The notes beneath the pieces were generated by a model. It saw only the letters and a program-made list of their open reading frames with translations, had not been told where the DNA came from and made no database searches. A stretch of 64,000 bases of DNA from Branchiostoma lanceolatum. Its lineage: Eukaryota > Chordata > Leptocardii > Amphioxiformes > Branchiostomatidae. Made by a program: the position numbers and the translations under genes. This document shows positions 35,214 through 61,840 of this stretch, in pieces (position 1 is the first letter of the stretch; the number at the start of each line of letters is the position of its first letter). The stretch spans positions 16,010,769-16,074,768 of the forward strand of contig NC_089727.1 of the NCBI RefSeq assembly GCF_035083965.1, written 5' to 3'.

Positions 35214-38200
35214 TTACTGTGGATCCCTTTCATTTGTGGCGAGCGAATGACGCTGTAACCAGATGTTGTAGGCGCAGATCAGGGGGACAAAAGACGGGTG
35301 TGCGCCGGGTGTGCGGGCCTTTCTCTCCCGGCAAGGACGCCGTATTGTCCGGATGTGATTATATCGATCCTGGGATGTTTGCACTAATACTGGACGCGTG
35401 TCCTCTGTTTTCCGGTACCCAACGCTCGTGGCGATACAGAGTTCTCTCAAACTGGAATTCCTGTTCTAATTCAGCGATAGAGACAACAAACAAATTATGA
35501 TATCATGTATACATGTACAGACTTCCGTCGTAACTGATGGCAAAAGCTGCCTGACACCCAGTGTCATGGTAGGCCATCAACTTTGTCGAAACTTTTTGTC
35601 TTCTCTTGTGAATGGTATTGATATAGATTTGAATAGAAGTGCTACAACAGTTCTTTAGAGTAGTACCACAGTGTCTATGCAAAATAGATAGTTTAAGATA
35701 TTTATGATGTCTAGATTTTAGATAATTACAACCATGTTATGACCGAAAAGTCTACCTCATGTTCCCCTCAGTTGTTTCTGCGACGGTTATATACCGTTAT
35801 GGATATGTGATTTCTGGGCCATTTTTTGTCGCAAAAAAGGATTGCTTTCTTTCTCTATCTCCAGTTCAATGATAACCAAAATTGGTGCACCGTCGTCTAG
35901 ACTAAGCTTCTTTTGATGTTTGAGGCTTGATATCTGCACAGCGCGTCTTCACTTAGGAGACTTGTACTTGTGTTCGACATCAAAGACTGAACACACTGAT
36001 ACAATCACGCCTGCGGCCACTACACGGGTAATTTCAAAGTGTCTGTTTTTTGTCTGAACGTCGGTAACGGCTGGTGAACAGTGTATGTGTGTGTAGCGTG
36101 CGGACCGGAAGACAGAGCAATGAAAGATGATTTCTAAAAGGGAATAAATGTGTGTCCGTGGTTATGGGTAAGAATTATTCGTGGTTATGATAGGACATGC
36201 AAAAAGGTGTTACTTCGAATCTAAGAATCTAATTCTTCGTGTCAGTCTTTCAGATATAAGCTAGAGTGTTTCAAAATGCTTTCTGATACAAACAAGTACA
36301 AAGTAAGGAAAAACGAATTTGAAATCAATTTTGTTTTGATCATAATCATAGATATTGTAGTAAGACTAAAACACAATTTTGATGGGCCAAGCTGCTACAC
36401 AGTTTTGTGACACATGGATCGATGGACTTACCATCGCAAGCACGGAGCATGCGTAGGTGGCATGGATGTATGATGTACCAGTCTTTGTAAACCTAGAAAT
36501 TATAGATAGTAGACACTATGCAGTGACACTACACTATGTAGAGTGTCAAACGTTACTATAGTTTACGACGATTTCGTGGAATACTGGTCATAGTGGTCCC
36601 TGGTCCCAACTTTGCTTAATACTATAGACATCAAGCATTAGAGTCTAAAAGAAGCCAGTCCAACAGTAGTGTGCATTTTCAGGCAAAACGCAATGCAAGA
36701 TATGACGAATTATTGCAAGACATATATAGAAGATGCATTGATGACTGTTACGTAGATCAGTCTGCAAATATGCTTACTACGAATGGGTGCTCTATCAGTT
36801 ACCGCGGTCTCAACTCGCTGAGCAAAAAATTCTTAGTCTGTGATCTCTGTAAAAGTGTTTGAAACATGCTGCCGACAAATCGCTGTCCTATCGCTAACGT
36901 CTGTCGCGGTATGTGAAAATTAGTAGCTTGTATGTTCTCTATCAATGATGGCGGCACGTTAAGTCCTCGGCAGCAGCTTCGGCTCTTTTCGGCCGTCGGG
37001 TCGGTACTGTGATTACGAAGGCGTTCTATTGGTCTCATACAAAGGAAATTGCCGAAGCACTTTGCTGCTTTGTCTGAGATACTCTGTGTGTAGATTAAAA
37101 GAAGTTAGCGTTGCCAACGACAACAGTACGAAAGAAAGAAGAAAAAAACTGTTTTCTGACTTTGTGTCTCTGTCGTTGTATCTCTCTACCTGTGATGTTT
37201 TCTGGATTTTACATCTTGTCCATGCACTTTATTACTATGATCACGCAGTTATTCGCCCTACTGTATACGCGTAGAAAAGAGGAAATATAGAATTGAACAT
37301 TGTCTCTCCATACTCTTGAAAGCCAGGTCCCTACACGTGTCCTGTTTCTTTCCATGTTGTCATGACAGATTCAAGAAACATGTCTCCGAGCAGTCGGACT
37401 ACACACGAAGAACGAATGTCTGTCAATGTGTGGCAATATTCGATATACACGTATTAGTATGCTCCATCTCAACTTTTCACAATTTTCATGCGAAGACCGA
37501 CGGTTCAAACTTTGCTGCAGGATACCAACTTAGTGTATATTTCTTGTGCATATGTTGTTGCCGTGACTCCAACAACGCCCCCTGGTGTTCCTTCCTTGGA
37601 AGTTCATGTTGTGCATGTCTTTGCTACAAAATTAATGTCAAGTTTTTTTCGACAAATGTACATTGTACCTCCTTGATTGTACTCAGGGATATAATGCATT
37701 AGCAATGCCGTGCTGTGTTTAGGTAGCCTTTATCTTTTAGTTAGAATCATTGTTAAGTATTGTACATTAATTTTAGTGCACATACAGTCTTTATTCTATT
37801 GTGTAGCAGCGATTGCGTTTGTACATTCGCCAAGAAGGTTATGTTTTCATATATCTTGCGGCAATATTCCTCCGTCCCTTGAGGTTTGGAGTTAATCGAG
37901 ACCCGTGGCCAATTTTCTGGTCAGCAGGTTACTTCAGAGGGCGCTCCCGACCAGACTTGGGCAGTCCCCCCGTCAGAAACCCGTCAGAGTCTCCGATGAT
38001 ATCAGTCTGTACCAAGATGGATGAAGCACGTTAGTAAGTCTCGTGTCGTCCAAAATGGGTGTCAATCACCCACAAAAGTCCCAAACAGCGCGCGCGTGTA
38101 CGCTGAATGGACGACTGCAAACTACATACCGCACTGAGCCAGCGCACTTAGCGGCGGAAATCTTGAGATATTTGGGATATTTTGAGGAACCAGATGTCAA

Positions 38201-39541
38201 CAGACTTTCAAACACTATGTAGGACAATGGCTTAAAGGAACGAAAATGAAATATGGGCGATATGACAAGTGATAAAAGGCTAAGGAAAGTACGAGAGATC
38301 ACAGGAAAGGACAACCACATGTTAATGTTGCTTGAAGCGAAACATGTTTTAATCCTTTCAGCCGGCTCTAAACATTCTTGATCCAGCTCTTTCTCTGAAT
38401 CTTCTGTCACCAAGACATGGAATGGAAGTACACAAAGGAACGTAAGGTACACACACTTCAATCTCGCATGAAACTTCACCAAGTGCAGAACAGAAGGATG
38501 CGTTTTGACCTAGAATTCACGGTTTCAGTATAACACCTTTTTTTTGAGGAGTTTAATCTAATCCACGATCGAGCAGGATTAAACACAGAAAGAGACATAA
38601 TCCCCGTCTAACAAACTGGATAGGAAAATGGCGGTCTTTTACAGATAAACCAACTGGTTCTGATGATAACCGCGGATAATTTTGGCCATCGGAGAGTTTT
38701 TGAAAGATAATTGTACTTTTGTTCAGGTTATCTCATAAGTGGGGGTAGCCGGGTGACGGCATTCTTTCAGGCGGCGACACAAAGCGGCATCTCGCCGGCG
38801 GTTTCTGAGGGCGACGCGCTGACTGGTCTGTGGAGTGAGACGGCGCGAAATTGGGAGATCAGGTGAGCACAATCCAGGTGTTTTCCCTCAGAAAGTCGTC
38901 TGCCAACGACAGCGATTTCAAAAGCCGCTGGGACACTTTGAAGTCGCATCGGGAGCCATTGTTTCCGGCATTTTTAAGATTATGGAGAAAATGCGTAGCG
39001 AAACGGCTGGTTCCTCCAACAATTCTATCCCATACGACCTCGGCATTTTATAATCACAGTTGATCCCGCTGATCGAAGTTGAAAGAAAGAGTCGCGTGGC
39101 GCATTGTTTATCACTTTTCACGAAGAACACACAGCTAGGTCAAACTGAGAAACAAAGAATACAAGTCCATCGTGGACAAATACACTGAGAGTTTATGTCT
39201 ATTTATTTATTTGTAGTTGCAAGAGCCGAATAGGGAGTCTTTCTACAAACAGAACATGAATGCGTTTTTATATTCACGAGTGCGGACTAGAAAAAAGAAT
39301 ATTGTTCCAGCTTTCAAAACTATTCCATAATATGTTAGACCGTCCCATTTCTTAAAAGAACGTTGGCCTTTCTATGAATATGCCAGGTTCATAAAATCAA
39401 TTGTCTGATGAAAGTATACTTGTGTTTCAAACTATTACATGTAGTATATGGTCAATCATCTTAGAAGGTTAAACTCGAAGCGATTTAGAACTGGAATAAG
39501 GGGAATTGTCTATTGTCTTGTTTCCTTAAGACAAAGGATAT

Positions 39542-39623
39542 AGCGATATCTTAGCCTGGAATCCAAACCTATTACGAGACTCGGGAGCTATAATAGGTTT
39601 GGATTCCAGGCTAGCGATATCTT
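39542..39623. mobile_element. 60 bp hairpin insertion in unit 1 with 11 bp target duplication
   Basis: The hairpin 39553-39612 runs from AGCCTGGAATCCAAACC to its complement. AGCGATATCTT is repeated exactly at 39542-39552 and 39613-39623. Units 2 and 3 have one copy of the site and no hairpin. It is of the same terminal type as 3294-3399. Confidence 0.85.
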
Positions 39624-40381
39624 GGATATATTACTGGTTACGAAGTCCGAGATAAAGAAACCGTATATCTGTTACAGTTTATCTCTGGGGTTAATCCTAT
39701 TCTTTCTGCTCACTAATCCTGATGCACTCTAACGTAAACAAGTCAGATTATAAAGGTGTTTATTCCTGTTTAAAGCTACGTGGCTAATGACTTAGCTAGT
39801 TGAGATGGCATAGAAAGAAACAATAAAAACAACACATTTAAAACAAAGAAAGACTTTTGAAATTGACACTTGCCTTGAAATCATGATTGTCACTGAATCC
39901 AATTAAATTTTGAGGTAAGCTGGGAGTATATAAGAAGCCGGTTCCAACAGATAAAAAATCTAGTGGTACAAAGCCAAAGCTTACAAGCAAATGTTGCAAC
40001 GGGAGAGTTGGGATTGCATACTCTTCATTGAGCCTTATTCTGAACAGAAAACAAAAAACAAATAGAAAGCCACAGCTGATGTCATATAAATCTGTAGAGT
40101 ATACCATACTCGTCTGTTCTTGATTTTGATTCAATGTCTATTGGCTTAAATTTAAAGGAAATAAATTCAATCCTAAGCCTCAGTATACGGGAACTAAACC
40201 ATGAAACCCATCTGTTGCGATAGCTTTTGATTGTCGACAACTTTACTTATCGTGAAGATGATCCCCGAGTTACTTGTGATGGACCCTCATGTGATAAAAG
40301 CACATTCCTTCATTAGAATTAACACAGGAACGTGATGACTTTGTTATCTTATCAAAATGATGAGGGCCTATTTTGCAATTA

Positions 40382-40583
40382 CTGTGAATGCAGAAACGGT
40401 GGTTTTATGTTCCCGGTTTTCGCGGCGACCGTTTCACCGCGAACATAAAACCGCCGCGAACATTTCTGGCCAACATTATAGTAGTATGTGACTTTAGCGC
40501 TGCCGCAAACTTAAAACCACCGAAACACTTCATTTTCGCCTTAGCACGAAATAAAAACCACGCGAGCTTAAATGCATTTACAG
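40382..40583. mobile_element. TTCGCGGTGGTTTTA-family MITE in repeat unit 1
   Basis: Starts CTGTGAATGCAG and ends TGCATTTACAG. It carries GTTTCACCGCGAACATAAAA and is homologous to 42879-43087 and 16264-16474. Absent from unit 3 near 45375-45385. Confidence 0.8.
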
Positions 40584-41450
40584 CATTGCGTTGTCTTTGT
40601 TCTATATAACGTTGGCCAAACAATTGCAACTTTTGCAATGGCGTAGAACAGCAATAAACAAGCAAACAAACAAGCAAACTACTTCTCCCTCAGATGTTGG
40701 TATTACCAAGTTTTCCTCACTACCATCACCCTACCGCTATTCCCTGTGGGAAGACTAATAGTTTTTCTCCCCTCCCTTCCTCTTTCCGTTCCCCTCTCCT
40801 CAAGGAAAACCTCATCCGTCTTCACCACGAGCGTTCCCGTATCAAAGTCAGGCATCGACAGCTCCAATTCTAACCCCCTAATCACAATCAACCAACTCCG
40901 ACAGGAACTCGATCAAATCGATAACATTTGTGTAATTGATTTTGGGTTCGATACGTGACAATTGTCTCCGCCTATCTGATTTCTAAGACACTATTTCTGG
41001 TTGAAGATAGAATATATACTACACCAGGCTGTTCGCCAAAAGTCTTTGGTTCGTGATCTATAACGAGCTCGAGTACATGACTGTAAATACACTTTTTGTA
41101 ATGCTCTAACTGTTAATTATTGCGCAATTATACATTTGTAGTTTTTGGAAAAATTGTCAACATATGCCGTATGTTCTTATCTTAACTTAGGCAATTACAA
41201 CGTAATTAATCAAATTTAGCCGGAACTCAGTGACAGAAGATTGACAAGACATATTTCTCCCAGAAGGCATCCTCTTTGTTTCAATCAAATAAGACCACAC
41301 CTTAAGAATTTATCTACAAAGAGCACATGTGTAATTATTCAAATTCGCCATGGCTCCATTTAAATCGATACTGTATGCAATGTTACCAACCAATTTATTA
41401 CGTCATCTGATGACGTAGTGATAGCTTTGTGGTCACGTTTTCCTCTCAAA

Positions 41451-41673
41451 TGAATATGTCTACTGCCTACGTGCACAGGCCAGAAACTGGCCCCTTGCTT
41501 TCCAGGTGGATCCTCCAAGAAGTCCTGTCCCCTGCCCTAGCCTCTGCTTCCCGAATGTTTAACCCAGTGTCCTTCACAATCTGGTCTTTCCATCTCTTAT
41601 GTGGGCTTCCCCGGGGTCTGGGGGTAGCGAACTCCTGGTTGTAGGCTTTGTCAGACTAATGTTTGTGAATATG
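41451..41673 (-). mobile_element. Truncated LINE (RT C-terminal end) in repeat unit 1
   Basis: A 207 bp insert (41459-41665) is bounded by TGAATATG on both sides. In unit 3 there is a single TGAATATG (46265-46272) and no insert. The minus strand reads like the C-terminal end of a non-LTR reverse transcriptase (RPRGS, then KDxxLNIREAEARAGDRTSWR), a fragment with several breaks. Confidence 0.6.
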
Positions 41674-42878
41674 GCACAATACTATTCCATGCTCGGTTCT
41701 TCAGCTTGGCTATGCAAATCAGAGCAATTCGATTTGAACTCTCAAAAATTGATAAGAGTAAGGTCCTTGGATTGCCACTTTTCCATATGTACTCACCCCG
41801 ACCCCATAGTTTTAAGCAAATGCGACGTCCCTAAAGTGATTGTTTTATAATACAAAAGGTATTGTTCCGCCTTTTGAAACTATTTCAAAACAGATTAGAG
41901 CGTTCCGTTCCTTAGAAAAAAAGAACTTGGCCTTTCTGTAAATATGGGCTGCAGACCGCTAAGTTTATAAATGAATTCTCTGATAAAAGTATACCTGTGT
42001 TTGAAACTTAATTGTCAATCTTCCTCGAAAGTTAAACTTTAAGAATATTAAGAATATTTCTCATATTGTCTTGTTTCCTTAAGACAAAGGATATAGCGAT
42101 ATATTGGATATATTACAGGTTACGAAGTCCGAGATAAAGAAACCGTATATCTGTTACAGTTTATCTCTGGTGTTAATCCTATTCTTTCTGCTCAGTAATC
42201 CTGATGCGCTCTAACGTAAACAAGTCAGATTATAAAGGTGTTTATTCCCGTTTAAAGCCACGTGGTTAATGGCGTAGATAGATGAGATGGCATTGAAAGA
42301 AACGATAAAAACAACACATTTAAAACAAAGAAAGACTTTTAAAAATGACACTGGCCTTGAAATCATGATTGTCACTGTATCCAATTAAAGTTTGAGGTAA
42401 GCTGGGGTTATATAAGACGTTATCTGTTCAAGGTCTTCTTCGAACGATGAAAAATCTAGTGGCGCATAACGTTAGTTTACAAGCAAATGTTGCAACTGGA
42501 GAGTTGGGATTGTATACTCTTCGTTGGGCCTTATTCTGAACAAAACAAGAACACACAGAAAGCCACAGCTGATGTGCTGTCTTTTAAAGCTACAGAGAAT
42601 ACCATTCTTGTCTTCTTTTGATTTTGTTTCAATGTCTACGCTCGAACTCACTTATATAGCCAAGAAATGTAATCCTAAACCTGAGCATGTGAAAACATAA
42701 AACCCATCGTATCTGTTGTGGTAGCTTTGATTGTCGACTTTCATTATCTTAAAGATGATCCATGGGTTGCTTGTGACGGACCCTCATGTGATAAAAGCAC
42801 ATTCCTTCATTAGAATTAACACAGGAACGTGATGACTTTTTTGTCTTATCAAAATGATGAAGGCCTATTTTGCAATTA

Positions 42879-43087
42879 CTGTGAATGCAGAAATGTTCGC
42901 GGTGGTTTTATGTTCGCGGTTTTCACGGCGACCGTTTCACCGCGAACTCAAAACTATCGCGAACATTTTTGTCAAACATTGTAGCAGTAAGTGACTATAG
43001 CGCTGCCGCAAACTTAAAACCACCGCAAACACTTCATTTTCGCCTTAGCACGAAATAAAAACCACGCGAACTTAGATGCATTTCCAG
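42879..43087. mobile_element. TTCGCGGTGGTTTTA-family MITE in repeat unit 2
   Basis: Same position in the unit and same orientation as 40382-40583. It keeps the complete GAAATGTTCGCGGTGG end that unit 1 has partly lost. Confidence 0.8.
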
Positions 43088-43936
43088 TATTGCTTAGAAG
43101 TCTTTGTTTTATATAACGTTGGCCAAACAATTGCAACTTTTGCAATGGCGTAGAACAGCAATAAACAAACAAACAAAAACGCAAACTACTTCTACTTCAG
43201 ATGTTGGTATCACCAACTTTTCCTCACTACCATCACCCTACCGCTATTCCCTGTGGGAAGAGTAATAGTTTTTCTCGCCTCCCTTCCTCTTTCCGTTCCC
43301 CTCTCCTTGGGGAAAACCTCATCCGTCTTCACCACGTGCGTTCCCGTATCAAAGTCAAGCATCGACAGCTCCAATTCTAACCCTCTAATCACAATCAACT
43401 AACTCCGGCAGGAACTCGATCAAATCGATAACATTTGTGTAATTGATTTCGGGTTCGATACGTGACAATTGTCTCCGCCTATCTGATTTCTAAGACACTA
43501 TTTCTGGTTGATGGTAAAATAAACACTAAACCAAGCTGTTCTCCTAAGGTCTAAACGAAGTCGTGTACATGACTGTAAAGAACAATGTTTTTCATACTTT
43601 GATTAGTGCGCCATTATATATTTGTAGTTTTTGGAAAAGTTGCCAACATATGCCGTATGTTCTTATCTTAATGTAGGCAATTACAACGTAATTAATCAAA
43701 TTTAGCCGGAACTCAGTGACAGAAGATTGACAAGACATATTTCTCCCAGGAGGCATCCTCTTTGTTTCAATGAAATAAGACCACACCTTAAGAATTTATA
43801 GACAAAGAGCGTATGTGTAATTATTCAAATTCGTCATGGCTCCATTTAAATCGATACTGCATACAATGTTACCAACCAATTTATTACGTCATCTGATGAC
43901 GTAGTGATAGCTTTGTGGTCACGTTTTCCTCTCATA

Positions 43937-44163
43937 TGAATATGTCTACCCTACTGCCTACGTGCACAGGCCAGAAACTGGCCCCTAGCTTTCCAGGTGG
44001 ATCCTCCAAGAAGTCCTGTCCCCTGCCCTAGCCTCTGCTTCCCGAATGTTTAACACATTGTCCTTCACAAACTGGGCTTTCAATCTCTTAGGTGTGCTTC
44101 CCCGGGGTCTGGGGGTAGCGAACTCCTGGCTGTAGGCTTTGTAGACTAATGTTTGTGAATATG
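43937..44163 (-). mobile_element. Truncated LINE (RT C-terminal end) in repeat unit 2
   Basis: The same insertion as in unit 1 (insert 43945-44155, TGAATATG flanks). It keeps a longer open frame on the minus strand (RPRGSTPKRLK, NIREAEARAGDRTSWR), clearer for the family assignment. Confidence 0.62.
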
Positions 44164-46535
44164 GCACAATACTATTCCATGCTCGGTTCTTCAAGTTGGC
44201 TATGCAAATCAGAGCAATTCCATTTGAACTCTCAACAATTGATAAGAGTAAGGTCCTTTGATTGCCACTTTTCCATATGTACTCACCCCGACCCCATAGT
44301 TTTAAGCAAATGCGACGTCCCTAAAGTGATTGTTTGATAATAAAAAAAGTATTGTTCCGCCTTTTGAAACTATTTCAAAACAGATTAGACCGTTCGAATT
44401 CCTTTCCTTAGAAAAAAAAGGACTTGGCCTTTCTGTAAATATGGGCTGCAGACCGCAAAGTTTATAAATGAATTCTCTGATAAAAGTATACCGGTGTTTG
44501 AAACTTAATTGTCAATCTTCCTCGAAAGTTAAACTTTTATAAGAATATTAAGAATATTTCTCATATTGTCTTGTTTTCTTAAGACAAAGGATATAGTGAT
44601 ATCTTGGATATATTACAGGTTACAAAGTCCGAGATAAAGAAACCGTATATCTGTTACAGTTTATCTCTGGTGTTAATCCTATTCTTTCTGCTCAGTAATC
44701 CTGATGCGTTCTAACGTAAACAAGTCAGATTATAAAGGTGTTTAATCCCGTTTAAAGCCACGTGGATAATAGCTTAGCTAGATGAGATGGCATTGAAAGA
44801 AACAATGAAAACAACACATTTAAAGCAAAGAAAGACTTTTGAAAATGACACTTGCCTTGAAATCATGATTGTCACTGTATCCAATTAAAGTTTGAGGGAA
44901 GCTGGGGTTATATAAGAAAATATCTGTTCAAAAGTCTTCTTTGAACGATGAAAAATCTAGTGGCGCAAAACGTTAGTTTACAAGCAAATGTTGCAACTGG
45001 AGAGTTGGGATTGTCTAATCTTCGTTGGGCCTTATTCTGCATAAAAGAACGCACAGAAAGCCACAGCTGATGTGCTATTTTTTAAAGCTATAGAGTATAC
45101 AATTATTGTCTGCTCTTGATTTTAACTTAATGTCTACGCTCACTTATATAGCCAAGACATGTAATCCTAACCCGAGCATGCTAAAACTTAAACATAAAAC
45201 CCATCGTATCTGTTGTGATAGCTTTAGGTTGTTGACAACTTAACTTATCGTAAAGATGATCCATGGGTTGCTTGTGACGGACCCTCATGTGATAACAACA
45301 CATTCCTACATTATTAACACATGAACGTAATGACTTCGTTATCTTATCAACATGACGAGGGCTAGTTTTGCAATTACTGCCTAGAAGTCTTTGTTTTACA
45401 TAAAGATAGCCAAAGGGAGGTTTAATCAAACCTTGGTTAGCCAAACAATAAACAAACAAGTTAACAAGCAAACAAAGTCACACAAAAATGTGGAAGCCAA
45501 CAGACCGACTTTCTACTTCAGATGTTGGTATTACCAAGTTTTCCTCACTACCATCATCTTACCGCTATTCCCTGTTGGAAGGCTAATTGTAGTTTTTCTC
45601 CCCTCCCTTCCTCTTTACGTTCCCCTGTCCCCAAGGAAGAACTCATCCGTCTTCACCACGAGCGTTCCCGTATCTCAGGCAAGCATCGACAGCTCCAATC
45701 ACACTAACCCTCTAATCACAATCAACTAACTCCGGCAGGAACTCGATAACATTTGTGTAATTGATTTTAGGTTCGATACGTGACAATAGTCTCCGCCTAT
45801 CTGATTTCTAAGACACTATTTCTGGTTGATGGAAAAATAAACAAGACAAAGCCGTTCTCCTAAGGTATTTGATTCCTGATCTGAATTTCATAAAGAACAA
45901 TATTTTCTTACTCTAAATAGTGCGCCATTATATATTTTTTTTAGTTTTTGGAAAAGTGGTCAACATATGCCGTATGTTCTTATCTTAATTTAGGCAATTA
46001 CAACGTAATTAATCAAATTTAGCCGGAACTCAGTGACAGAAGATTGACGGGACATATTCCTCCCAGAACTGGCAGAAGGCGTCCTCTTTGTTTCAATCAA
46101 ATAAGACCACACCTTAAGAATCTAGTCACAAAGAGCGCATGTGTAATTATTCAAATTCGTCATGGCTCCATTTAAATCGATACTGTATGCAATCAGTTAC
46201 CAACAAATTTATTACGTCATCTGATGACGCAGTAATAGCTTTGTGGACACGTTTTCCTCTCAGATGAATATGGCACAATATTATTTCACGGTCCGGTCTT
46301 CATTCGGCCATGCAAATCAGGGCAATGCCATCTGACATCTTAAAAGTGAATCATTTTGATTTTGATTGCAACCTCTGTGTTCATACCCTGTAGTGTTGAA
46401 CGAATGCAACGTCACTAACGTTATTGATTTGTAATGATTCCTTGGCAACAACGAGATTCTTGTACAAGAATGAGGCCATAGAACAAACTGTCGAACGTCA
46501 GTCAAGATCAAAACAAAACAACATTGTGACGCAGG

Positions 46536-49500
46536 ATGTATCACCGACCGATAGCTTTATGGTTCGTTATGGCCGCAGAAGTTCAACAAAATATCGTCTG
46601 TAGTATCTGTTTGGAACTCTTCCACTGTCCAGTGGTTTTGCCGTGCAGCCATTCTTTCTGTAAGAAGTGCATATCGGACTGGGTGGACATGTCTTTACAC
46701 AGACAACGCGCGGAAAGTTTCACCTGTCCGGAATGTCGAATGCCGTTCAACTTGAACCGGGGTGGAGTCGAGGCTCTTCCGTTCAACCACGCTCTCTCAA
46801 GCATGGTGGGCGCTTACAGAACGTCTGGAAATGGCGGGAATTTTCTGAGCGCAAACGGAAACGCTAGATTGGTTCAGGGAATGGGGACTCAAGGGGTACA
46901 GATGCCCGGCAGGTGTAGGGAGCACGGCAAGAGTCTCTTGATGTACTGTATGGCCTGTGAGGAGGAGTGCTGTCTGCAGTGTATCAAAGAGCCGGGAGGA
47001 AAACATCCGGCCAGCTCACCGCAACACAACGTCAAGAACAAGTACGTGGCGACGTCGTTGAGAAAGGTGCGTCAAGGAGTTTTATGCTAATCAATAAGAA
47101 ATAATTGTTTGATTTTTTTATGATTAAGAATTGGGGGAATTTTATGATAATCAAGAAACAAATGACCGAAATGTGCACCATATGCTTTCCTTCAACCGCG
47201 TACACACGGCGCGACTGATGTGAAGTGTGCACATACATACTTCTTTAGCTTAGAGAATAATGGTTGACAGATGAAATTTATGAAAAACATAATAGTTTGA
47301 TAAAACCCACTTTTTACGGCAAAGTTTTCCTTTTTGTAGGTTAGTTTGATGGACATCTCAATAGGCAGCAGGAAAACACAGGAGAAGATCTCGGATATGG
47401 AGACAGCGTTGTATGTGAGTACTGTCCATCATCTTCCGTTACTATGGTAACGTCTAATGAAGATGAAGAAAGCAACGACTGTTCGTTAAACATTGAACTG
47501 AGGATATAGCTATGTGTTTGGCCCAAGGGATGGACCAAATCTATTCATTCGTTTATTTATTTACAGGGCAGTACTGTCCATCATCTTCCGTTACTATGGC
47601 AACGTCTAATGAAGATGAAGAGAGCAACAACTGTTCACTGAACATTGAACTGAGGATATAGCTATGTGTTTGGCACAAGGGATGGACCAAATCTATTCAT
47701 TCATTCGTTCATTTATCTATTTATAGAGCAATACTGGAAAGGCTATAAACGAAATAAAATCGCAGATGGAAGCCATTAAAAAAGCATTGGACATGAAGAC
47801 GGCACAAATGATGGCGGCGGTACAGTCTGAGAGAGCAGAGAAACAAGAACGGTTAGACGCCATTAGGAGAGGTCTGAACATCATCCGAGACGACTCGAGA
47901 TTTCTGTTGGGGGAGGGGGGAAACTCGGAGAAATTCCTAAAGGTGAATGTGTCTTTTGTATCTATCATTTCTGTTGCATAAACGTTGCATAGACGTTCAA
48001 TTATGTCGTTCAGTTTGTACGGTCTTTCGTTCAAACATACACTACTGGATTGCTACCATTTATCCTTAGTCAACGTGCAAGACTCTGTACAAAACTGATG
48101 CATTTATTTTCATCATCAACAGGAGGCGCACGCTGTCCAAGTAAGGTGAGTATCCGATAGGACTACTGTACGATAGGGCAATATGAAAGGGTTTGTCTTG
48201 ATAAAGGTGATGGTTGTATGCTAATGATAGGATGCCGAAGTAGAGTTGCACTTGTCATGGGTTGTTTGTAAAAGCTATTGGATAGGTCTTTGAGGTTATG
48301 ACTAGCACATGTTTGAAGCACATGCTCTGATATGATTGCGTTAACAAGAGAAGAATATAAGTGTTGTGACACAGTGTGTTTCTAGCTCTCTAGAGTGGCA
48401 ATGATATCATGAGCGGGAGTCAAGAGTAAGACAAAATGAACAGAATGTTTTTCTTCTTCTCGAACATTTAGGGCAGCAGCAATATGTGCAAATCAAGACT
48501 GGAACGACCACAGTTTGGGTCGTGTGCAAAAGATTCCATCAGAGCGACAACTACAGACGGTAAAGCGCGCCATTGACAACATTTTCTGTCAGAAACCCAC
48601 AAACAAGCTTCAAGTACACGGCGATGGATGGCCAAGCTTCGAGCAAGCGAGATCTGAGTTCACACCGAGTAGTGCCCACGATGCTGGGACAAAACAGCAA
48701 CCATCACAAGGCTTTGGTGACAGAAGGAACAGCAATACGAAAGAAAACAAGGCTCCGTTGGTCACTTACGGGGTAAGAGCATGATCTTCATTTCGTAATC
48801 ACGGAAATGGAAATGTAAAAGTAAGGTCATGCACTAACAGGTCCCGATTTGAACGTGGTGTTATTCAAGCACGTAGTCGAGACTTTTCCATTAAAAAAAA
48901 CATTTTTTCCTTCTTCTAACAGAGACCGTATCGGATATTGACAAAACAACCAGAGTCGACAGTTTCTTCTACAGTGAACACACATCTGGCACCAGACCTG
49001 CAGCTTTTCCCGAAACTATCTATTTCTGGTACGTCACCACTTCCGACGATTGCCGAGGAGATCCCGATCGCTGACGACGGCACGCCGAAAATGACCGAGT
49101 CGATGCCCAACGAACCGACGAACGTACACGCGAATTCTGGAAATGCAAGCTTAAGAAGAGGACAAGAAGACATACGAGCAAATACCTTTTCAAAGCTCAC
49201 AAAAGAAAACCAGAAAGAAGAGGAAATAATGTTTCAGCAAACTGCTAAACTGTTTCTTTGGGAGTCGGATCGCACAGACTGGAAAGAACACGGAGCTGGC
49301 GATCTGAAAGTGTGTAACGTTTCATGTAACGTTACTGATAATGGTTATATACTCGCGTACCCTAGCCACAGTAATCCACATACAAAATAACGCTAGTTCA
49401 TGCTATTGTTTCAAAGAATCAATTCAGTAAAAAGTACACTTTTTATATTGTCTTATGTGATAGCTTCGTTACATATGCAATACCTGATTACATGTAGTTT

Positions 49501-50608
49501 CTTACTTAAAACTGATTATTTATCCCATCTATATTTAGTTCAGAAAAGTATTGTAGCCTAAAAACCTCATAATCCGAAATGATGGGTATAGTAGTATTTT
49601 TATTACAATCATTTTGATGAAAGAAAGGATAGCTGGGGTGTCATCCCATTTTTTCCACCCAAAGAAGATGTCAATATCAAATTTATTCAAAGTAAAATTA
49701 GATAAACCAGCAAAATACCACTATACCCATTATTTGGATTATCACATTTCTTTACATTACTTTTCTGAACTGAATAAATGGGTTAAATAATCAGTTATTC
49801 TTACTTTTCAACGAAAATTAACATTAAATCCATGTCAACGATCATTTCGCCACTAATTTCCCTAACTTGTTTAATATTTCCTGGCAGATACTTCGGCATA
49901 ATGTGACGGGTAAGGCCCGTGTCCTGATGTGGAGTGACGGCACGTACAGCGTACAGGCGAACCACTACATCACGGCGGACATGAACCTTGTGGACGACAA
50001 AATCGGTGGGGAGAACGCGCTGGTCTGGTCAGGCATCGACGCGGCAGACGGGTCACGGAAGGTGTCGTCTGCAGAGGCTTTTTTTTATTTGTTTAAACAT
50101 TACTGAAATCATTGCTATTACCTTTACCTACAAGGTTGTATTTTGGTGCCGTTTGTGTCTATCTGTTTGTTTGTTGACAGTTAAACTTGAGAAGCTGTGG
50201 ATGAATCATTATGATATTTGGCAAGTTGGCAGGGGTCGGGAAATAAGAGGTCAAGTTCGACAATGGGCTCCCTAGCGGCTTTCTAGGGTACTGCAGCGAA
50301 ACTTCCGGTTTTGATATTTTTAGTAAATGTTGCTGATTTCACAGATGTAGATGAGATACGAAAGCCTCTATACTTTTGTCGTGTCAATATGCTGCAGTGG
50401 TGCTATAAGCCCATGAAGCACATATATCCTTGCTAAAAATATGTCAATTCAGCTCCCTTGTCGTTATTGCCATGTTCTCCAGGAGGCGTTCTTTGCGGCG
50501 GCTTTTTCTGAGCCTGACGCCGCTATTCTTTACAAGAAGGTGTTTGAGAGATGTGTGGCAAGGGAGATGGCGAAGGAGCGGGCGGCCGCGGCTAGCAGCA
50601 CGCCTTGA
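46536..50608 (+). CDS. TRIM-type RING/B-box/coiled-coil protein with C-terminal RanBD1 domain
   Basis: Eight exons: 46536-47066, 47340-47414, 47727-47942, 48123-48145, 48472-48772, 48923-49309, 49888-50061 and 50483-50608. All junctions are GT-AG with matching phase. It encodes 610 aa from the first ATG, or 599 aa from the in-frame ATG at 46569 (MAAEVQQN), which fits TRIM starts better; positions below use the latter. RING C3HC4: C11, C14, C26, H28, C31, C34, C53, C56. B-box 2: C116, H119, C127, C130, C135, C138, H146, H153. Coiled coil about 167-265 (KSQMEAIKKALDMKTAQ, SERAEKQERLDAIRRGL). A polar linker follows to about 470. The Ran-binding domain is about 473-592: QQTAKLFLWESDRTDWKEHG, ILRHNVTGKARVLMW, QANHYITADMNL, WSGIDAADG and FERCVARE, the RanBP1/RanBP2-type pattern. 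Predicted role: a ubiquitin E3 ligase recruited by Ran-GTP or nuclear transport complexes (inference). The 75, 216 and 23 bp exons after the first match the usual TRIM coiled-coil exon series. Confidence 0.88.
47418..47727 (+). repeat. Tandem duplication of ~153 bp in the TRIM gene's intron 2
   Basis: AGTACTGTCCATCATCTTCC begins at 47418 and again at about 47571; each copy continues through GAACTGAGGATATAGCTATG and ends in an ATTCATTCGTT..TTTA(T/C) acceptor-like stretch. The distal end provides the real acceptor of exon 3 (tttatag at 47726), and the proximal copy carries an equally good acceptor (tttacag). An exon from the proximal acceptor would hit a stop soon. Confidence 0.8.
49499..49806. 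mobile_element. MITE in intron 6 of the TRIM-RanBD gene
   Basis: Inverted ends ACTGATTATTTATCCCA and TGGGTTAAATAATCAGT, with further pairing (TTAGTTCAGAAAAGTA with TACTTTTCTGAACTGAA; GATGGGTATAGTAGTATTTT with its diverged complement). TTCTTACTT flanks both sides (49499-49507, 49798-49806), a 9 bp target duplication. Confidence 0.75.
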
Positions 50609-50669
50609 GCACATCGTGAAGATACAGTGTATTTGAAGATGAGATCGTGATGGGAGTGATACTGGTAAT

Positions 50670-50868
50670 GCTAGGGTCACATTTCCAATCCGGGGCCCGG
50701 CCGGGCAGTCTTTGGGAACGAAAAAAATGATATAAAGGACAACAAAAACACTAAACGTACCTAAAATTATTTAAGAGCATAGCTTGTGCAAATTTATGGA
50801 CATACACTTTGATTTTTCGTTTCCGCAAACAGCCCGGCCGGGCCCCGGTTAGGAAATGTGACCCTAGC
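50670..50868. mobile_element. Palindromic element 3' of the TRIM-RanBD gene
   Basis: GCTAGGGTCACATTTCC at the left is matched by its complement at the right. The next block CGGGGCCCGGCCGGGC also pairs with its complement. About 60 bp beyond the stop, so it probably lies in the 3' UTR, where it could fold into a very stable stem. Confidence 0.75.
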
Positions 50869-51392
50869 ATAAAGATGTACGGAGTATTTCAACAAAACCG
50901 ACGTCCAAAGGTCCATCATCCAATAGCGGTATCATTGATAGTTATAACGGTTGTATTTTTGTTAGACAGCAAAATATGAATGCAGCATGGTGATGGACTT
51001 GGCAGACTTTGGGTGTTTGAATTAATTTCTATTAAAAGAAAGTTGATGAACTATGTCATCAAACGGAAATTCCACAAACATTTTTGCAAGGTGTTCTTTT
51101 GTAACCATACATTTAGTCACACAACACAACACGACAAGTCATAGGGCGACATTTGGATTTTGTATTCCCAAAAGAAGCTAGAAGAATTTAGCTTGTAAAC
51201 TTGAATATTGAAAGTAACTGATTAGATACAACTAAGTCGGTAATGCATACGTCTTCACATGAACAATGCACTATAATTGTCAAATGTCAAAACCCAAGGG
51301 CTGTAGTCTTAACAAGTTACCTGGTTTTGAGTATGGTAGTACATAGTGCACATTAGTACTATAGCTAAATACCATTTCTTTCCGATCCTGTT

Positions 51393-54004
<2,612 letters not shown>

Positions 54005-54059
54005 CTCCAAAGCGTCCTTGCGATATCGACGCCTGGAACAATAATCGTAGAAAATGTTG

Positions 54060-54640
54060 GATACACATGTGTATCAGGGGCGGGCAATAACGATTTCTCC
54101 AGCAAAAGAGCCTGGCCTCGATAGGTTGAAAATCGCAAATGAGACCCCCCGCCCCCAAAAGATAAACGCCGTCGCCGGGCAGAGAAAGCTTGCAAATGAG
54201 ACTATATCATATCAACCCTGAGATTAACAGAACGTTTGGACTTAACGTCAAGCTGAAAAAATGGGAATTGAATGCCCGGGTTGACTACATTCGCTGAGTT
54301 TCTACAATATATACCTCTAAAGACTGGTGAAATAGAAGCCCTTTCGCCCTCTCTCCGATCGACACTCGTGACTGCAAAGATACAGCTCATTGACCCAATT
54401 ACAGGTTTCATTTACCTACGGAGTAATCATTGACTTGGGTTGTATAACTTATAAGACAGAGGTGACTGCTGAGAAGATCTAAATAAGGAGGGGCTGCCTG
54501 CCTTTCTTAACGAAGGGCTACTCGTTGTGCCATTGGTACGTATGAGACGTACCCACCTATATCTTATGTGTAAACGTTCACTAGAAAAGGATGGGTATTA
54601 TTACGAACTAAAAAGGGAGAGAAAGGGAGTCCCATAGCCT
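54060..54640 (-). promoter_or_regulatory. Conserved upstream block of SULT copy A
   Basis: Matches 61120-61690 upstream of copy B, for example CGCCCTCTCTCCGATCGACA (54346 region and 61417 region) and CTGCCTTTCTTAACGAAGGG-type stretches. On the minus strand a GTATATAT motif follows AAGGGCTT(C/T)TATTTCACCAG, which may be a leader-exon donor or a TATA-like box. It is the likely site of the non-coding first exon and promoter. Confidence 0.4.
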
Positions 54641-54644
54641 TTCT

Positions 54645-54890
54645 GAGGCCGTAGAGGCTTATAGTTGTTTAACGTGGGTCTGTGTCTAGGGCACTAGGGT
54701 ATGACATTGGAAGGTGGAGCCCGCATCCCTCTCCTTCCACCACCTTTTACCTCTCTAACCATAGCCAGGTACCTATTCTCTACAACTAGGTGGAGACAAG
54801 TCATTTTAAGGGCCTTTCCCAAGGATACAAAGTGTAGACGGGAACGCCAGGAATTGACCCCGTGACCTCTCGATTTCGTTCCACGCCACT
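54645..54890 (-). mobile_element. tRNA-derived SINE, minus strand
   Basis: Reads on the minus strand with the same body as 16928-17192 (complement of GGTACCTATTCTCTACAACT and CCCTCTCCTTCCACCACC). The tRNA-like head at the right includes the complement of GAATTGACCCCGTGACCTCT. Confidence 0.55.
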
Positions 54891-55533
54891 AGGAACTTTG
54901 TCCCCTCAAATGTGAACTGTATACACATGAGATGATACACATATATTTATATATACTCAAGCATTGTTTTAAGGAATTTCTTTAATCACATTTCATAATT
55001 CTGAACACTAATAACATAACATATTCACATTTGTACACAGCATGCAAAATACATTTAGACCGTATGATATGGCTAATCTAGATTGATCAATTCATCACAT
55101 TTCACAAGCAAACCATTGTTCGTTTGAAAATAAAAACATCGAATTTCATGAATGTGATATGTCGACTAAGTAAACTTACTCAATTGTATTTTGACATCCA
55201 AGCATTGTTGCACATACCAGATCGTTTAAAAGTATCAAAATGCATGCTAAGTAACAGTAGACAGCAACAAATGACTAATAACCTTATGGATTAATGACTT
55301 TGGCGACGACAAACATGTGGTACATACTATATGTAATATAGTATATTAGATATTGGAAGTAACTGAGATACAACCAATTTGGTAATCCGTACATCGTCAC
55401 ATGAACAATGCACTATAATGGTCAAATGTCAGAACTCAAAGGGCTGTAGCCTTAACATATTACCTGGTGTTAGTATTACTACCGATCGGCACATAAGTAG
55501 TACATCTAAAGACCATCTCTTTCCCTTCCTGTT

Positions 55534-56780
55534 TTACTCAAAGTCGAACTGCAGACCGGTTCCCTCCAGCTTCTCCTTGTACTTGGCGTCATAAGCCTCG
55601 CTCTGAGGCACTGTGAAAGTGTTCTTCCAGTCACCGACCACACCTACAATCAAGATCAAAATCGTGCTAGTTTTGTATGTTAGGTAGAAAATGTCCGCAA
55701 TGTGAAAAGAATGAAAACTTTTTGTTTTATTTTGTGACTTACTTTACAAGATTTGGGGACAAAAACTTACCTCAGGTGAAATGTAAACCATCACAACACA
55801 ACACAATATATATAATACAGCACAACGCACAATCACTTTGTCTTGTACACGATAATTGAGTTTGAATTCCCACAATATGTTAAACTATGTATAGATCACA
55901 ACTCACCCACGTATACGAACTCACGTGTTGTATTGACAGAACTCCAGAACTCTCTGTCCAGAGAAGAAAACTACATCCGGGGTATTTGCCCCTGGTACCT
56001 AGTGCGCAGGTGCGAGATACTAAAGGCGGGAAAACTACTAGATAAACACAATACTCCACCTTTCCTGGCGATGAGACTTTTGGTTGTGGCTCCAGATTCT
56101 GTCCAAGCGGCCTTCAGACTGGCAATGGTGCAGGACTCAACAATGTCTGACGTGGTGACGTCATCCAGGGTGATGTCCAAGAATTCCTTCATCTTCCCGA
56201 CGGCACTGGACACGTCCTAGGTGAAATCAATGATATACAACGTATTGCAATAAATCAAAATGCACGGCGATGCATACTAGCATTCATGTATCCATGATAC
56301 ATTTGAAATATAACAGAACTCTCGAAAGCTAGCATCGGTAATTTGAACCCTTCTTACACCTTAAAAATAAATTGCCAAAGTATGAAAATGTAACTATATT
56401 TCTATTAAAAGTCAACCTGGAGACGCACCTTCTTCATATCTTCGTACTTGAGGAAGAGAAAATGGGGGTCGTCTTTCATCTGCCACCAGCCAAGTGCGTG
56501 GTCGTAGAAGTCACCAAACGGAGCTGAATAGAACGAAATTGGCAACGTAAAAAGACGTTGCCATGGCGACGATGGTTTTTACAACCCATAGATCACGTTC
56601 AAATAAAGACCTCATTCGCATAGATTATATAAGTTGATCACCTTCTCTACCCAAATAATACAATTTGTTCAAAGTTTGAAAGTCAAATCTTAGCAAAAAA
56701 GGCTATTGTACTGTTTCCTAATTGATTATGTATGATTTATGTCTAATAATGTCCATACATAATCCGCGAGCTTCATACTG

Positions 56781-56848
<68 letters not shown>

Positions 56849-56855
56849 ACATCAA

Positions 56856-56936
<81 letters not shown>

Positions 56937-59900
56937 ATGTAGTTAACATCCAAGGGCTGCAAGAATGAAATCCCCATCATTAACCACGATGAAATTATAG
57001 TATTTTGTCATTGATCATGTAAATTAGGTATTTATTTGCATAATTGATGATATCGATATTCATCTCTTATATCTCAAGGCATTCTTGAGTAATCGTCCTG
57101 TGGATTGAAATTCCTGTTGACACATTCTTGTACAATTCCTAGAATTCTTGCAGACTGAACACAATACTATACCATCGTCGACGTCGATTGGAAAGTAATG
57201 GCTACAACAGTTTGCAATATGGTTGATATTGATAAAAGACTTCATACTTTATAATTATGCCCCGAAATCACTTCATGGTGAGACATCTTTAAATGTTGAT
57301 AACCCTCGTATCCCTCGCACACCTTGCACGTCGCAAAAAAGTGTGTCTGACAGGAGCAGTAGGCGAAACCAAGAAGGTTCAATAAAAATGAAAAATATTC
57401 ATAAAAAATCAACGATTAGCGCTGGAGCGTAAATTTCAAAACGATTGATAAACAGGCGTCAACCCGCATTTTCTGAATGCAAGTTGCGATGCGTACCTCT
57501 TCCCGTTACCATGGCAACGGACTAGTCTACATTTTTGAGGGGCGTTTTCATTGTTATTTTCATTGTATCATACTTTGCTAGAAATAGAAGCCATTTGAAA
57601 GAAGACTAAGGTATCAGATCGTAATATCACGAAGTCGAGCATTTATTTGTTGTTTGTTTTGCGTTTTGTGCTGGAAAATTAGGTGTCAACAAGCACAAAG
57701 ACACACGTAAGACACTAAAATGCAGGTAATACAGTCTCCCATATTGCTATTAATATACATTTCCAGACGTGAAGCTCCGCTTTTATCAAATTTAAGGCTA
57801 TGGCATACACTTTGCGCGCCCCCCCCCCTTTATTCGTATTTCTTAGAACGATTCAGATGGCTCCCTTTGGCCTGTACCCAGATCGCTTCCTCAGCACTCC
57901 GTCAGAGTCCACCAAGCCTGGGTGCGCACAACAGCAGCACTTTGATTCGTTGTCTAGTCCTGTGTGCCTTTGCTTTGTTATCGGCCAAGCTAAAAAATGT
58001 GCTTGCTGGCCCGCTTGTGCGTAATTTACTGCCAAGAATCCCTAAATTCATCACAATCTGTTCTCGCCTGAACTACATGATAGGGGGCGCTTATGATGTC
58101 GCGACTTGTGATAGGTGTCAAAGGCCAATGCGTTGACGTAAGACATCTTAACTTTTAGGGATGATGGAGAAGATAGTTTTCTTTCGTTTTAACTATTATT
58201 GACATAATGCATTATACATAAGGTCTCATTTCTGTATTACTCCGAGTGGGTAAAGGAATCCGTGCCCCAAAAAATGAACGGCTGCATGGACGTGTGTTTA
58301 TGTCGGTGGGAAATTCTCTTTTAACCAGCCCGACTGATCTCAAGCGTCAAACTGATGAAAGCTTGTTTGTAACGGAAGAAATTAACAGGTAAAGTTTGGC
58401 AGCCTCGCGCGGGGTCGGATGTCCACAGCCGGACATTGGCGGTAATTCGGTCGATCGCGTTCAGCTGGAAAGCGCCTATTTAGGGGGTGTAGCTAAGTGC
58501 CGTTTGTAATTGCCATAAAAAGGTATTGTATGCCAACTGGTAGTTGGCAATTTTTTCACATGATCTAGGGTAGATGAGCTCAACACAGAATGAATGACAT
58601 TGGTGCATTTCTTATAGCTTCATTACGAACGCGCCCATGTAAAACACGTTTTATAACATGTAATTGTAAGCCTATGGGGCGAAAAAACTCATTAATGAGA
58701 CCTTAAGAGACAGATTTGAAGCAACATTCCTTGAAAGTGATGTTTTTTTAGGAAGTGATGGTTTTGGAAAGACGACAAAGATGCCGTCGTCAATCATTGT
58801 GCTGTGATATGACGTACCGAACCCGTCGAGAAAGTCTTGCGCAAACTTGTCCCAGTTGCAGGTTGTGACAGATGCTGTGCCTAAAAGTAAAACTTGATAC
58901 TTCTCGAGATAATGATACAGTGACACCGCCGTGTCTTTTGGGTTCCTCATCACCATGATAACTTTCACCTGGAAGGAAGGGAAAGACAATGCGTTGTGAT
59001 ATACTTCTACACCACATTATCCTCTACATTTTTACAATTTAGATAAACGAAAGGAAGATAAATATGATATCACGAACTCCCGTAAAGCATTTACTCTGTT
59101 GATAAACTATATGACAAGCAAACATAGACATGTCCCTCTAACAAAATTGTAGTATGATAATACCTTGTATAAGGGAGCTTCAGGCATTAGCCTCAAGGGT
59201 CAAACCTCTGCACGTAAAAGAACCCAACACACTTATCGAGAAGAGTAGGGGTGACCCGGTGTGCTTGGCCAAAAACGCGAGCCGTAGCGAAGCCGCATTG
59301 CACTACCACTAGCTACTTGAAAAAGCACCATGCTTCACCTCAAATGAGAATGCCTTGAAACGAAACGAAAATACCTTGCCCGTTGGATTCGAAATCATTT
59401 TGGGGGCCAGGTGCCGCGGGAGGTGCGTGTGAACGATCCTGGGGGAAGGGTGGTCCTTCACGATCACGTGACCTGGCTTGCCAAAATCGGGCAACCTCCC
59501 TTCAATAAACCATGGAATGTCTTTTGCCAGTATGTCCGTTTTTCCTGCTGCCCTCATCAGTTTGTTGACGATCTCAATGGTCCAGTTTGTGCCTGACAAA
59601 ATATAAACCACGTGACAAAAAAAGAATAATTATATAATCCGGAGTCGTTTGTCTGTCTGTGTGTTTGTTTGTTTGTGAACAGCATAACTCGAGAAGCTGT
59701 GGATGAATCCTTATAATATTTGGTAGGTGGTAAGGGGTCGAGGAAACGAGGTTCAAGTTCAACAATGGCCTCCGAGCAGTTTTCTAAGGTACTGCAGTAG
59801 TATTTCCGGTTTTGATATCTCGTGTTCTGGACCAGGTATGGTCGTGATTTTGGAGCGGTTTAGATGTTTTCATGAAATATCTACTAACAAAATGACTCTC

Positions 59901-60090
59901 TTTTTTAAACGCAGCATGGCGGATGTGACGTCACACCCTACTTATCACCCTTACCTGCTTTTGGGTAAGTCAAAATGACGACGTCATCATCGCGTATGAC
60001 GTAATCAGGCATCATGTCGAGGGTCTCTTTGGCAACTGTCAAGGAACCAAAGTATGCTCCCTTGTATTCAAACATTGACAACCATTCCAT
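55534..60090 (-). CDS. Cytosolic sulfotransferase (SULT family), copy B
   Basis: Six coding exons: 60090-59955, 59592-59375, 58968-58818, 56523-56429, 56216-56060 and 55643-55534; 288 aa. All catalytic motifs of copy A are kept: TYPKAGTNW, RIVHTHLP, MRNPKDTAVSLY, RKG then VVGDWKN. Differences: the N terminus is MEWLSMFEYKGAYF in place of MERWFKYKGAYF; exon 3 of the coding set is 151 bp rather than 145 (two extra residues, LLLG segment); and the intron between exons 4 and 3 from the 3' end is expanded to 2.3 kb by a trinucleotide array and other sequence. The gene looks intact. The splice donor after the 218 bp exon lies beside a SINE that duplicated it. Substrate unknown. Confidence 0.9.
56782..56936. 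repeat. (ATC)n microsatellite in SULT copy B intron
   Basis: About 50 ATC/TCA trinucleotides with a short AACATCAACATC interruption near 56845-56856. On the minus strand it reads as a run of ATG/GAT. Confidence 0.97.
59159..59378 (+). mobile_element. SINE-like insertion at a SULT copy B splice donor
   Basis: A 202 bp insert (59168-59369) with a GAAACGAAACGAAA-type tail is bounded by AATACCTTG on both sides. Copy A has one such site (about 53238-53246) and no insert. The body includes ACGTAAAAGAACCCAACACA and GTGACCCGGTGTGCTTGGCC. The right-hand repeat overlaps the donor of exon 59592-59375. Confidence 0.8.
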
Positions 60091-60763
60091 CTTCACAGCT
60101 TCAGGTGTCAATGCCTGGAACAATGTAGACAATGAGAGTTAACAGGTCTTCCATTTTGTATGCCAATCTTTGGAACTCATGACAAAGTATCTTTAATCAG
60201 AACAGTCCGAAACATGATCGAGTGATTGGCTTGCCTTTCTTGTGGCACCTTTAGAGTTTTTTTTTTCAATTGTTTATACTAATATGAATATTTCACATTG
60301 CATTGGGACTGTCTTGTCGGCATAAAAGTATGACAACATTGAAGGGAAGACGCGATGTATTGTAGCCTATTGGAAAACGAAGGCATACAATATGCAGGAG
60401 CATTTATGTGCACCATGCAAAATAACGACCTGCAAGGCGTGATCAACAATAAGGGCCTACCAAAAATTGCTTTTTGAAAAAATAAAGCTGGCATTTCGGC
60501 GGCACAGTTGTTTTTGATTGGTAAGCCTTTCTTGTGTGAAGACGCGATAATGTCATCTTGGAAGGCCCAGACTATCAGCAGGATATTCTTGTCAATAATA
60601 ATTTTCTCAACATTGACAGGTGTATGTCGTTACGAACCAGTCAGAGCATACCCTACAGTCTTTGACAACCTTGTAAATAACACCTCATGATCTGTCAACT
60701 TTAACTCCTTATGGAGTCCTGACTCAGTGACAATAAAAAGAAGGAAAAAAATCCCAAAGACGG

Positions 60764-60915
60764 GTTTCGAACTAATCTCCAAGCAGATTCAACGGTTGCG
60801 AAGACCGTATCCAACTGGTAGAAGAAATTTTTATGGCAATAAAACCTCCTTTTGCCAGTTGGATACAGATACGGTCTTTGTAACCGTTGGATCTGCTTGG
60901 AGACTAGTTGCGAAC
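60764..60915. mobile_element. MITE of the TAATCTCCAAGCAGAT family
   Basis: The element 60773-60906 begins TAATCTCCAAGCAGATT and ends ATCTGCTTGGAGACTA. The flanks GTTTCGAAC and GTTGCGAAC agree at 8 of 9 bases. Same family as 8297-8450. Confidence 0.82.
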
Positions 60916-61119
60916 CTAAGATCTTCGGTTAGCAAGTGTTGGATATAGTAATCTTTATTGTATTTATATGTATTATATTCATTCCCCAGGGGGATGAATG
61001 CATACGAGACCATACATGGTGTAATGAATATGAGAGAATGAATATAATAATGATAACGTTAAAATCCAAACCTAACATAATACTAAACACTACAAAATGT
61101 ACTACCCTATGTCTCAATC

Positions 61120-61700: not shown

Positions 61701-61840
61701 GCAAAGTTCACCCCCTCAGTTACCAAACTTTAGAAAAGTCCAACATAGGAGACCATCTCTGTTGACTGCATTGTTGTATAATTCCGCTAGATGACGCCGG
61801 CGCTTACGTTTAGCAGGTGACCCAGGGCTGCTAGCTGTTA

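Follow-up and report, generated by a model that had tools for sequence, protein, structure and literature searches.

We examined a stretch of 64,000 nucleotides from the lancelet Branchiostoma lanceolatum (contig NC_089727.1, positions 16,010,769 to 16,074,768 of the forward strand; hereafter the window, numbered from its first letter), focusing on a predicted gene at 46536–50608 on the forward strand. Eight exons, separated by seven GT–AG introns of 150–578 nt, were joined in phase at this locus into a chain with no stop in 610 codons. The product would carry a TRIM-type module of RING, B-box and coiled coil (RBCC) followed by a Ran-binding domain (RanBD). Two start codons are available, ATG 46536, which gives 610 amino acids, and ATG 46569, which gives 599 amino acids of an otherwise identical protein; residue positions below refer to the 599-amino-acid form. 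From the sequence we infer that all eight exons lie within one mRNA. The exons and domains, all on the forward strand, are the following:

46536–47066, forward strand: exon 1 (531 nt), with start codons at 46536 and 46569; RING and B-box share this exon
46599–46736, forward strand: C3HC4 RING finger, residues 11–56, found by Pfam and by pattern match
46914–47027, forward strand: B-box 2 (CREH...CMAC....C..C...H...H), residues 114–141
47340–47414, forward strand: exon 2 (75 nt), coiled-coil region
47727–47942, forward strand: exon 3 (216 nt), coiled-coil region
48123–48145, forward strand: exon 4 (23 nt), phase 0 to 2
48472–48772, forward strand: exon 5 (301 nt), linker, phase 2 to 0, no in-frame Met
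48923–49309, forward strand: exon 6 (387 nt), linker and then start of the RanBD; first in-frame ATG at 49091
49211–49309, forward strand: RanBD part 1, within exon 6 (PF00638, 7e-07 with exon 6 alone)
49888–50061, forward strand: exon 7 (174 nt), RanBD part 2 (ILRH...GSRK)
50483–50608, forward strand: exon 8 (126 nt), RanBD part 3, C-terminus and stop codon TGA

Domain composition of the predicted protein

The RING was detected by Pfam in the 599-amino-acid form as zf-RING_UBOX (PF13445, residues 11–54, 5.6e-10) and as zf-C3HC4 (PF00097, 2.2e-08). The B-box fell below the Pfam cut-off (zf-B_box, 17.3 bits vs. 24.1; 19.7 bits with exon 1 alone); by a B-box 2 pattern, 8/8 ligand positions were in place and the spacing fitted. 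When the RBCC region was compared with solved structures by phmmer, the best two of the 23 PDB sequences matched were TRIM3 (residues 6–276, E 4.4e-19) and TRIM2 (residues 6–148, E 4.9e-16), which we take to belong to class VII, in TRIM subfamily C. A putative coiled coil was assigned from the alignment to the TRIM3 RBCC structure, as far as residue 276. NHL repeats were absent from the Pfam scan of the protein. A 23-nt exon at the place of exon 4 is usual for TRIM genes.

At the C-terminus, Pfam identified a Ran_BP1 domain (PF00638) at residues 468–583 with an E-value of 1.2e-28 (100.2 bits vs. a cut-off of 23.2); the original prediction had expected a RanBD1 at 473–592 of this form, split over the last three exons. 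The split was also found, as exons 6 and 7 each matched PF00638 on their own (2.8e-10 for exon 7), while exon 8 by itself (41 amino acids), which had no Pfam match, was assigned as a gapless continuation of the RanBD alignment. Since this alignment runs without gaps through both intron positions, which fall at K|I and K|E in phase 0, it supports both splice junctions. The closest single-domain chain among solved structures was RanBD4 of RanBP2 (PDB 4l6e, 9.6e-26), with 51 of 123 residues identical (41%), and identities to RanBD1, 2 and 3 were 46/118, 45/115 and 43/117. The domain thus resembles the RanBD1 domains of RanBP2/Nup358 at 37–41% identity over 115–123 aligned residues. RanBD bit scores were 93.6 for RanBP2, 74.1 for RanBP1 and 20.5 for RanBP3. 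An ordinary RanBP1 orthologue was considered as the identity of the RanBD and rejected, because the FEP element described below is lost and the RanBP2 score is the higher of the two.

The domain matches in this exon chain are far beyond chance. The exon join, the Pfam hits and the structure matches all bear out the earlier claim of a TRIM/RBCC module and a RanBP2-type RanBD1 in a single phase-compatible chain.

One gene or two adjacent genes

The weak point of this reading is whether the chain represents one gene or two, because lancelet gene sets contain predicted chimeras. High domain recombination has been claimed for lancelets (PMC4284660) and disputed (PMC4967905, PMC6071037); both of the latter document false chimeras in lancelet gene sets, with predicted ones refuted by expressed sequence tags.

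The two modules are connected by a linker in exons 5 and 6. Only one of the six reading frames of exon 5 is open. The exon begins in phase 2 and ends in phase 0, matching the end of exon 4 and the start of exon 6. Since it has no in-frame Met, exon 5, if coding, needs an upstream exon, and the sole one known is TRIM exon 4, whose phase fits. With flanking composition, exon 5 was open by chance in 38 of 20,000 simulations and exon 6 in 4; with their own composition, the figures were 787 and 79 of 20,000, respectively. An in-frame TAA stands immediately 5' of the exon 6 acceptor.

We also applied a codon score, for which the 373 codons of the domain exons served as training set and positions 36000–46400 and the introns, assumed to be non-coding, as background. 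The coding frame ranked first of six in exon 5 (15 of 3000 non-coding stretches scored as high), in the whole of exon 6 (7 of 3000) and in exon 6 up to 49093, the Met included (52 of 3000). Taken together, the open frames, phases and codon scores point to one gene, which we consider probable.

Several observations weigh against this assignment. The part of exon 6 that decides between the two models, up to the first Met, comprises 57 codons and was open by chance in 581 (flanking composition) and 2407 (own composition) of 20,000 simulations. After Met 49091, the coding frame scored second of six (0.052 vs. 0.080), with 85 of 3000 non-coding stretches as high. When the training exons were left out in turn, 64 (exon 1, which is certainly coding), 200 (exon 2), 5, 0 and 2 of 3000 scored as high; because of these values and of the stretch beyond the Met, we regard the codon test as only moderate in strength. 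RNY periodicity was highest in the coding frame in four of seven exons (1, 2, 5 and 7; not 3, 6 and 8), exon 4 being too short for inclusion. Further, we placed the exon borders manually, guided by open frames, splice sites and RanBD homology instead of a gene finder, so the agreement of phases is partly built in, and the donors of exons 6 and 7 (GTGTGT and GTGTCG) are poor. The 204-amino-acid linker had no match in the PDB at E up to 10, nor did the exon 5 open reading frame in Pfam at E up to 0.01.

The chain might instead be two adjacent genes, which we judge unlikely: a TRIM gene that stops within exon 5 or beyond it, and a small gene for the RanBD that begins at ATG 49091. Exons 5 and 6 lie on the same strand only 150 nt apart, and, if intron 5 were retained, the TRIM half would stop at TGA 48782–48784. 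Such an arrangement would be in keeping with the documented chimeras; however, the phases of exons 4, 5 and 6 fit, and exon 5 has its coding frame first of six without an in-frame Met to start from. The single ATTAAA at 48890, between the halves, might serve the upstream gene, but chance alone would place 0.90 copies of A[AT]TAAA in 47943–48922, and 1177 of 2000 simulations had one. The codon score does not decide the matter after Met 49091, where the coding frame is not the top-scoring one, whereas before it exon 6 is open up to 49093 with the coding frame in first place.

The Ran-contact surface of the RanBD

The lancelet RanBD was aligned with nine references, namely RanBD1–4 of RanBP2 from two chains, one of them human and the other presumably from Xenopus, plus RanBP1. 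Thirty-seven columns were invariant over these nine domains, and the lancelet RanBD keeps 22 of them; with leave-one-out, every reference retained 37 of 37–44 invariant columns. The FEP element (F, E and P), present in all nine references, is absent from the lancelet domain, the N-terminal arm of the alignment being loose. Six of the 11 invariant basic residues are replaced (Arg by Thr, Leu, His, Trp and Ser; Lys by Ser), and these features set the domain apart from the RanBDs of RanBP2/Nup358. Other losses at invariant columns are a second P (a gap), E to Q, E to K, E to A, F to Y, and the Cys before ANH, which is Q.

High-affinity RanBDs use an HFEPVV N-terminal extension and an EWKER motif, hold the acidic tail of Ran with basic residues and take up its C-helix in a pocket (PMC3045386). 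RanBP3 binds Ran weakly, for reasons reported to include missing HFEPVV contacts, a missing basic residue at R1284 and, as another reason tested, the loss of the E and K of EWKER (PMC3045386). Our comparison with these contacts covered the N-terminal arm, EWKER, the basic residues and the Trp of the beta5–beta6 loop. In the RanBP2 numbering used here, the motif numbered 1154 in PMC3045386 starts at 1210, and R1284 is Arg in both; the Q1248 contact of that paper could not be placed, as residue 1248 of the PDB chain is Ile.

The nine references all have R or K at the RanBP2 R1284 position, where the lancelet domain has Ala. EWKER reads DWKEH, with W, K and E kept and R changed to H, so that the E and K implicated in RanBP3 are not lost (D and K). 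MRR has become MWS, with both Arg gone, and the K of the KxCANH strand is replaced. Kept are WKE, the glycines, GxGxxKxL, ANHxI, the beta5–beta6 loop Trp and five invariant basic residues. The predicted domain would accordingly retain the RanBD core and some of the contact that RanBDs make with the G domain of Ran, while its N-terminal arm and much of its basic surface are changed.

With much of the Ran-embracing surface changed, we consider it more likely that the domain binds Ran weakly or has changed its target. The retained contacts, among them the K of WKE and the beta5–beta6 Trp, speak against this view. In the original prediction, the WKEHG.GD.KIL and NHYIT signatures made Ran binding plausible; both signatures are indeed kept, but the argument is weakened by the absence of FEP and the replacement of six of 11 invariant basic residues.

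It appears quite unlikely that the protein is, along the lines of the original prediction, an E3 ligase that recognises Ran-GTP about as strongly as RanBP2 does and acts at nuclear pores. In favour of such a ligase, the RanBD is plainly of the RanBP2 group, and the W, K and E of EWKER, GxGxxKxL, ANHxI and the loop Trp are all retained; against it, the FEP element is absent, the invariant Arg of WKER, the two Arg of MRR and the K of the KxCANH strand are replaced, and Ala stands at R1284.

Comparison with known systems

The original prediction had known of no TRIM with a RanBD1, which does not hold, since zebrafish ftr52, a finTRIM described by Boudinot et al. in 2011, is a transcribed RBCC–RanBD–CypA gene spliced across the junction (PMC3137616). 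Every PCR product obtained from the fish tested carried a premature stop in the N-terminal exon of ftr52, and the authors propose that ftr exons 1–4 were inserted into a RanBP2-like gene (PMC3137616). In the literature searched, ftr52 was the only TRIM–RanBD combination among the matches listed, and no second paper naming both "ftr52" and "TRIM" came up; most subscription papers and all eukaryote sequence databases lay outside this search, so that other reports may exist.

As in ftr52, RBCC exons are followed in the lancelet by a multi-exon RanBD where a B30.2 domain would stand. Unlike ftr52, which is broken by the early stop, the lancelet frame is open. Also in contrast with ftr52, whose RBCC is that of a finTRIM, the lancelet RBCC is nearest to TRIM3 and TRIM2 among solved structures. 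A third difference concerns CypA, which ftr52 has and which was not found with the lancelet gene: the Pfam scan of the protein gave no Cyp family, and four Cyp motifs had 0 matches in six frames of the window. The TRIM–RanBD architecture is already known, and what sets the lancelet gene apart from ftr52 is the open frame, the lack of a detected CypA and a different nearest RBCC. The exon plan resembles that of zebrafish ftr genes, which have exons of 555–594, 96 and 234 nt (PMC2657112), in that one RING/B-box exon is followed by coiled-coil exons, here of 75 and 216 nt.

Branchiostoma also has subfamily C TRIMs with two convergent MATH domains (Marin 2012, PMC3503706). Like these, and if it belongs to the group that contains class VII, the present gene would be a lancelet TRIM that gained a new C-terminal domain, with the difference that it carries a RanBD where the others carry MATH.

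Among RanBDs, that of RanBP3 likewise lacks the HFEPVV contacts at its N-terminus and a basic residue where RanBP2 has R1284; unlike RanBP3, the lancelet domain is far closer to RanBP2 (93.6 vs. 20.5 bits) and keeps the K of WKE and the beta5–beta6 Trp. A RanBP2-type zinc finger was found neither by Pfam in the protein nor by motif in the window.

Proposed function and origin

TRIMs in general dimerize through the coiled coil, transfer ubiquitin by means of the RING and pick their target with the C-terminal domain, which in other TRIMs is SPRY, NHL or another recognition domain. On balance, the explanation that we favour is one eight-exon TRIM (RBCC) ligase gene with a C-terminal RanBD of the RanBP2/RanBP1 group that binds Ran weakly or has changed its target. 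By analogy with other TRIMs, the coiled coil would form a dimer and the RING would recruit ubiquitin-charged E2 (E2~ubiquitin), with the RanBD as the targeting module in place of the usual recognition domain. The RanBD may grip Ran-GTP weakly, for instance only inside a Ran-GTP/exportin complex, or hold another protein; the likeliest targets would be Ran-GTP/exportin complexes in a weak, transient association, or some other protein, and the predicted ligase would ubiquitinate whatever the RanBD holds. The gene may have arisen when RBCC exons were joined to exons that encode the RanBD in a RanBP2-like gene, the kind of origin that the authors of the ftr52 study propose for the zebrafish gene (PMC3137616).

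A decaying fusion nearing the state of a pseudogene like ftr52, with neutral drift behind the changed RanBD surface, is very improbable: the lost interface residues and the stop seen in all ftr52 products from the fish tested (PMC3137616) would suit it, but the 610 lancelet codons are free of stop or frameshift, and a RanBD core kept while basic residues are lost is not what we would expect of random decay.

More speculatively, and with considerable doubt, TRIMs may have captured RanBP2-like RanBD pieces more than once; in the lancelet, tight Ran binding would then have been given up, and the RanBD would have become a new means for an intact ligase to recognise its target, either a transport complex or an invader exploiting the nuclear pore. 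If a tree were to separate two joinings of an RBCC with a RanBP2 part, it would suggest that a tie between a ligase and Ran or the nuclear pore has been useful more than once. According to a 2026 report, TRIM34 interacts with nucleoporins and importins, which is the same machinery reached by another route (PMC13189347). If transcribed as read, the lancelet gene would provide an unbroken TRIM with a RanBD tail, as against the zebrafish case, reported with a stop, and a natural experiment on the behaviour of a RanBD whose grip on Ran has loosened.

Repeats and neighbouring sequences

Repeated DNA lies within the gene and on both sides of it. Intron 2 contains one such feature:

47418–47563 and 47570–47715, forward strand: two copies of about 146 bp in direct tandem order, with 92% identity and intronic in this model; 11 bp separate the second copy from exon 3

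An inverted repeat resembling a small transposon (49510–49600 and 49712–49796, 82%) lies inside intron 6, which splits the RanBD, and another (50668–50725 and 50813–50870, 88%) begins 60 bp past the stop codon. A dispersed repeat in intron 7 (50151–50317) is 80% identical to 59655–59818, in the second of two sulfotransferase-like regions. Upstream of the gene, 39612–42881 and 42094–45379 form a tandem direct repeat (89.5%, offset about 2.5 kb), and further repeat blocks match 45511–46272 and 46265–46345, the repeated DNA ending about 190 bp before the first ATG.

Within the 64-kb window, a tblastn search for paralogues at E up to 1 returned nothing beyond the exons of the gene itself. No relatives were confirmed among viral contigs (eight pattern matches for the RanBD and four for exon 1), a collection unlikely to hold such a gene, and a scan of 101 bases for a bacterial-type promoter gave nothing, which is uninformative for this DNA.

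The surroundings were characterized by running Pfam on nine of the 61 stop-to-stop open reading frames of at least 100 amino acids, plus one shorter frame. Downstream, on the reverse strand, 51205–61701 holds two tandem sulfotransferase-like stretches (51.2–54.6 kb and 55.3–61.7 kb) that share blocks of 78–92% DNA identity, with a Sulfotransfer_1 match (2.1e-07) in 52559–53089. Upstream, a weak CS-domain match was observed at 20374–20685 on the forward strand (18.7 bits, under the cut-off of 21.3), and the reverse strand carries a BTB/POZ domain at 22856–23341 (2.1e-07) and, at 12389–13255, an endonuclease/exonuclease/phosphatase domain (4.6e-22) that is perhaps a retroelement endonuclease.

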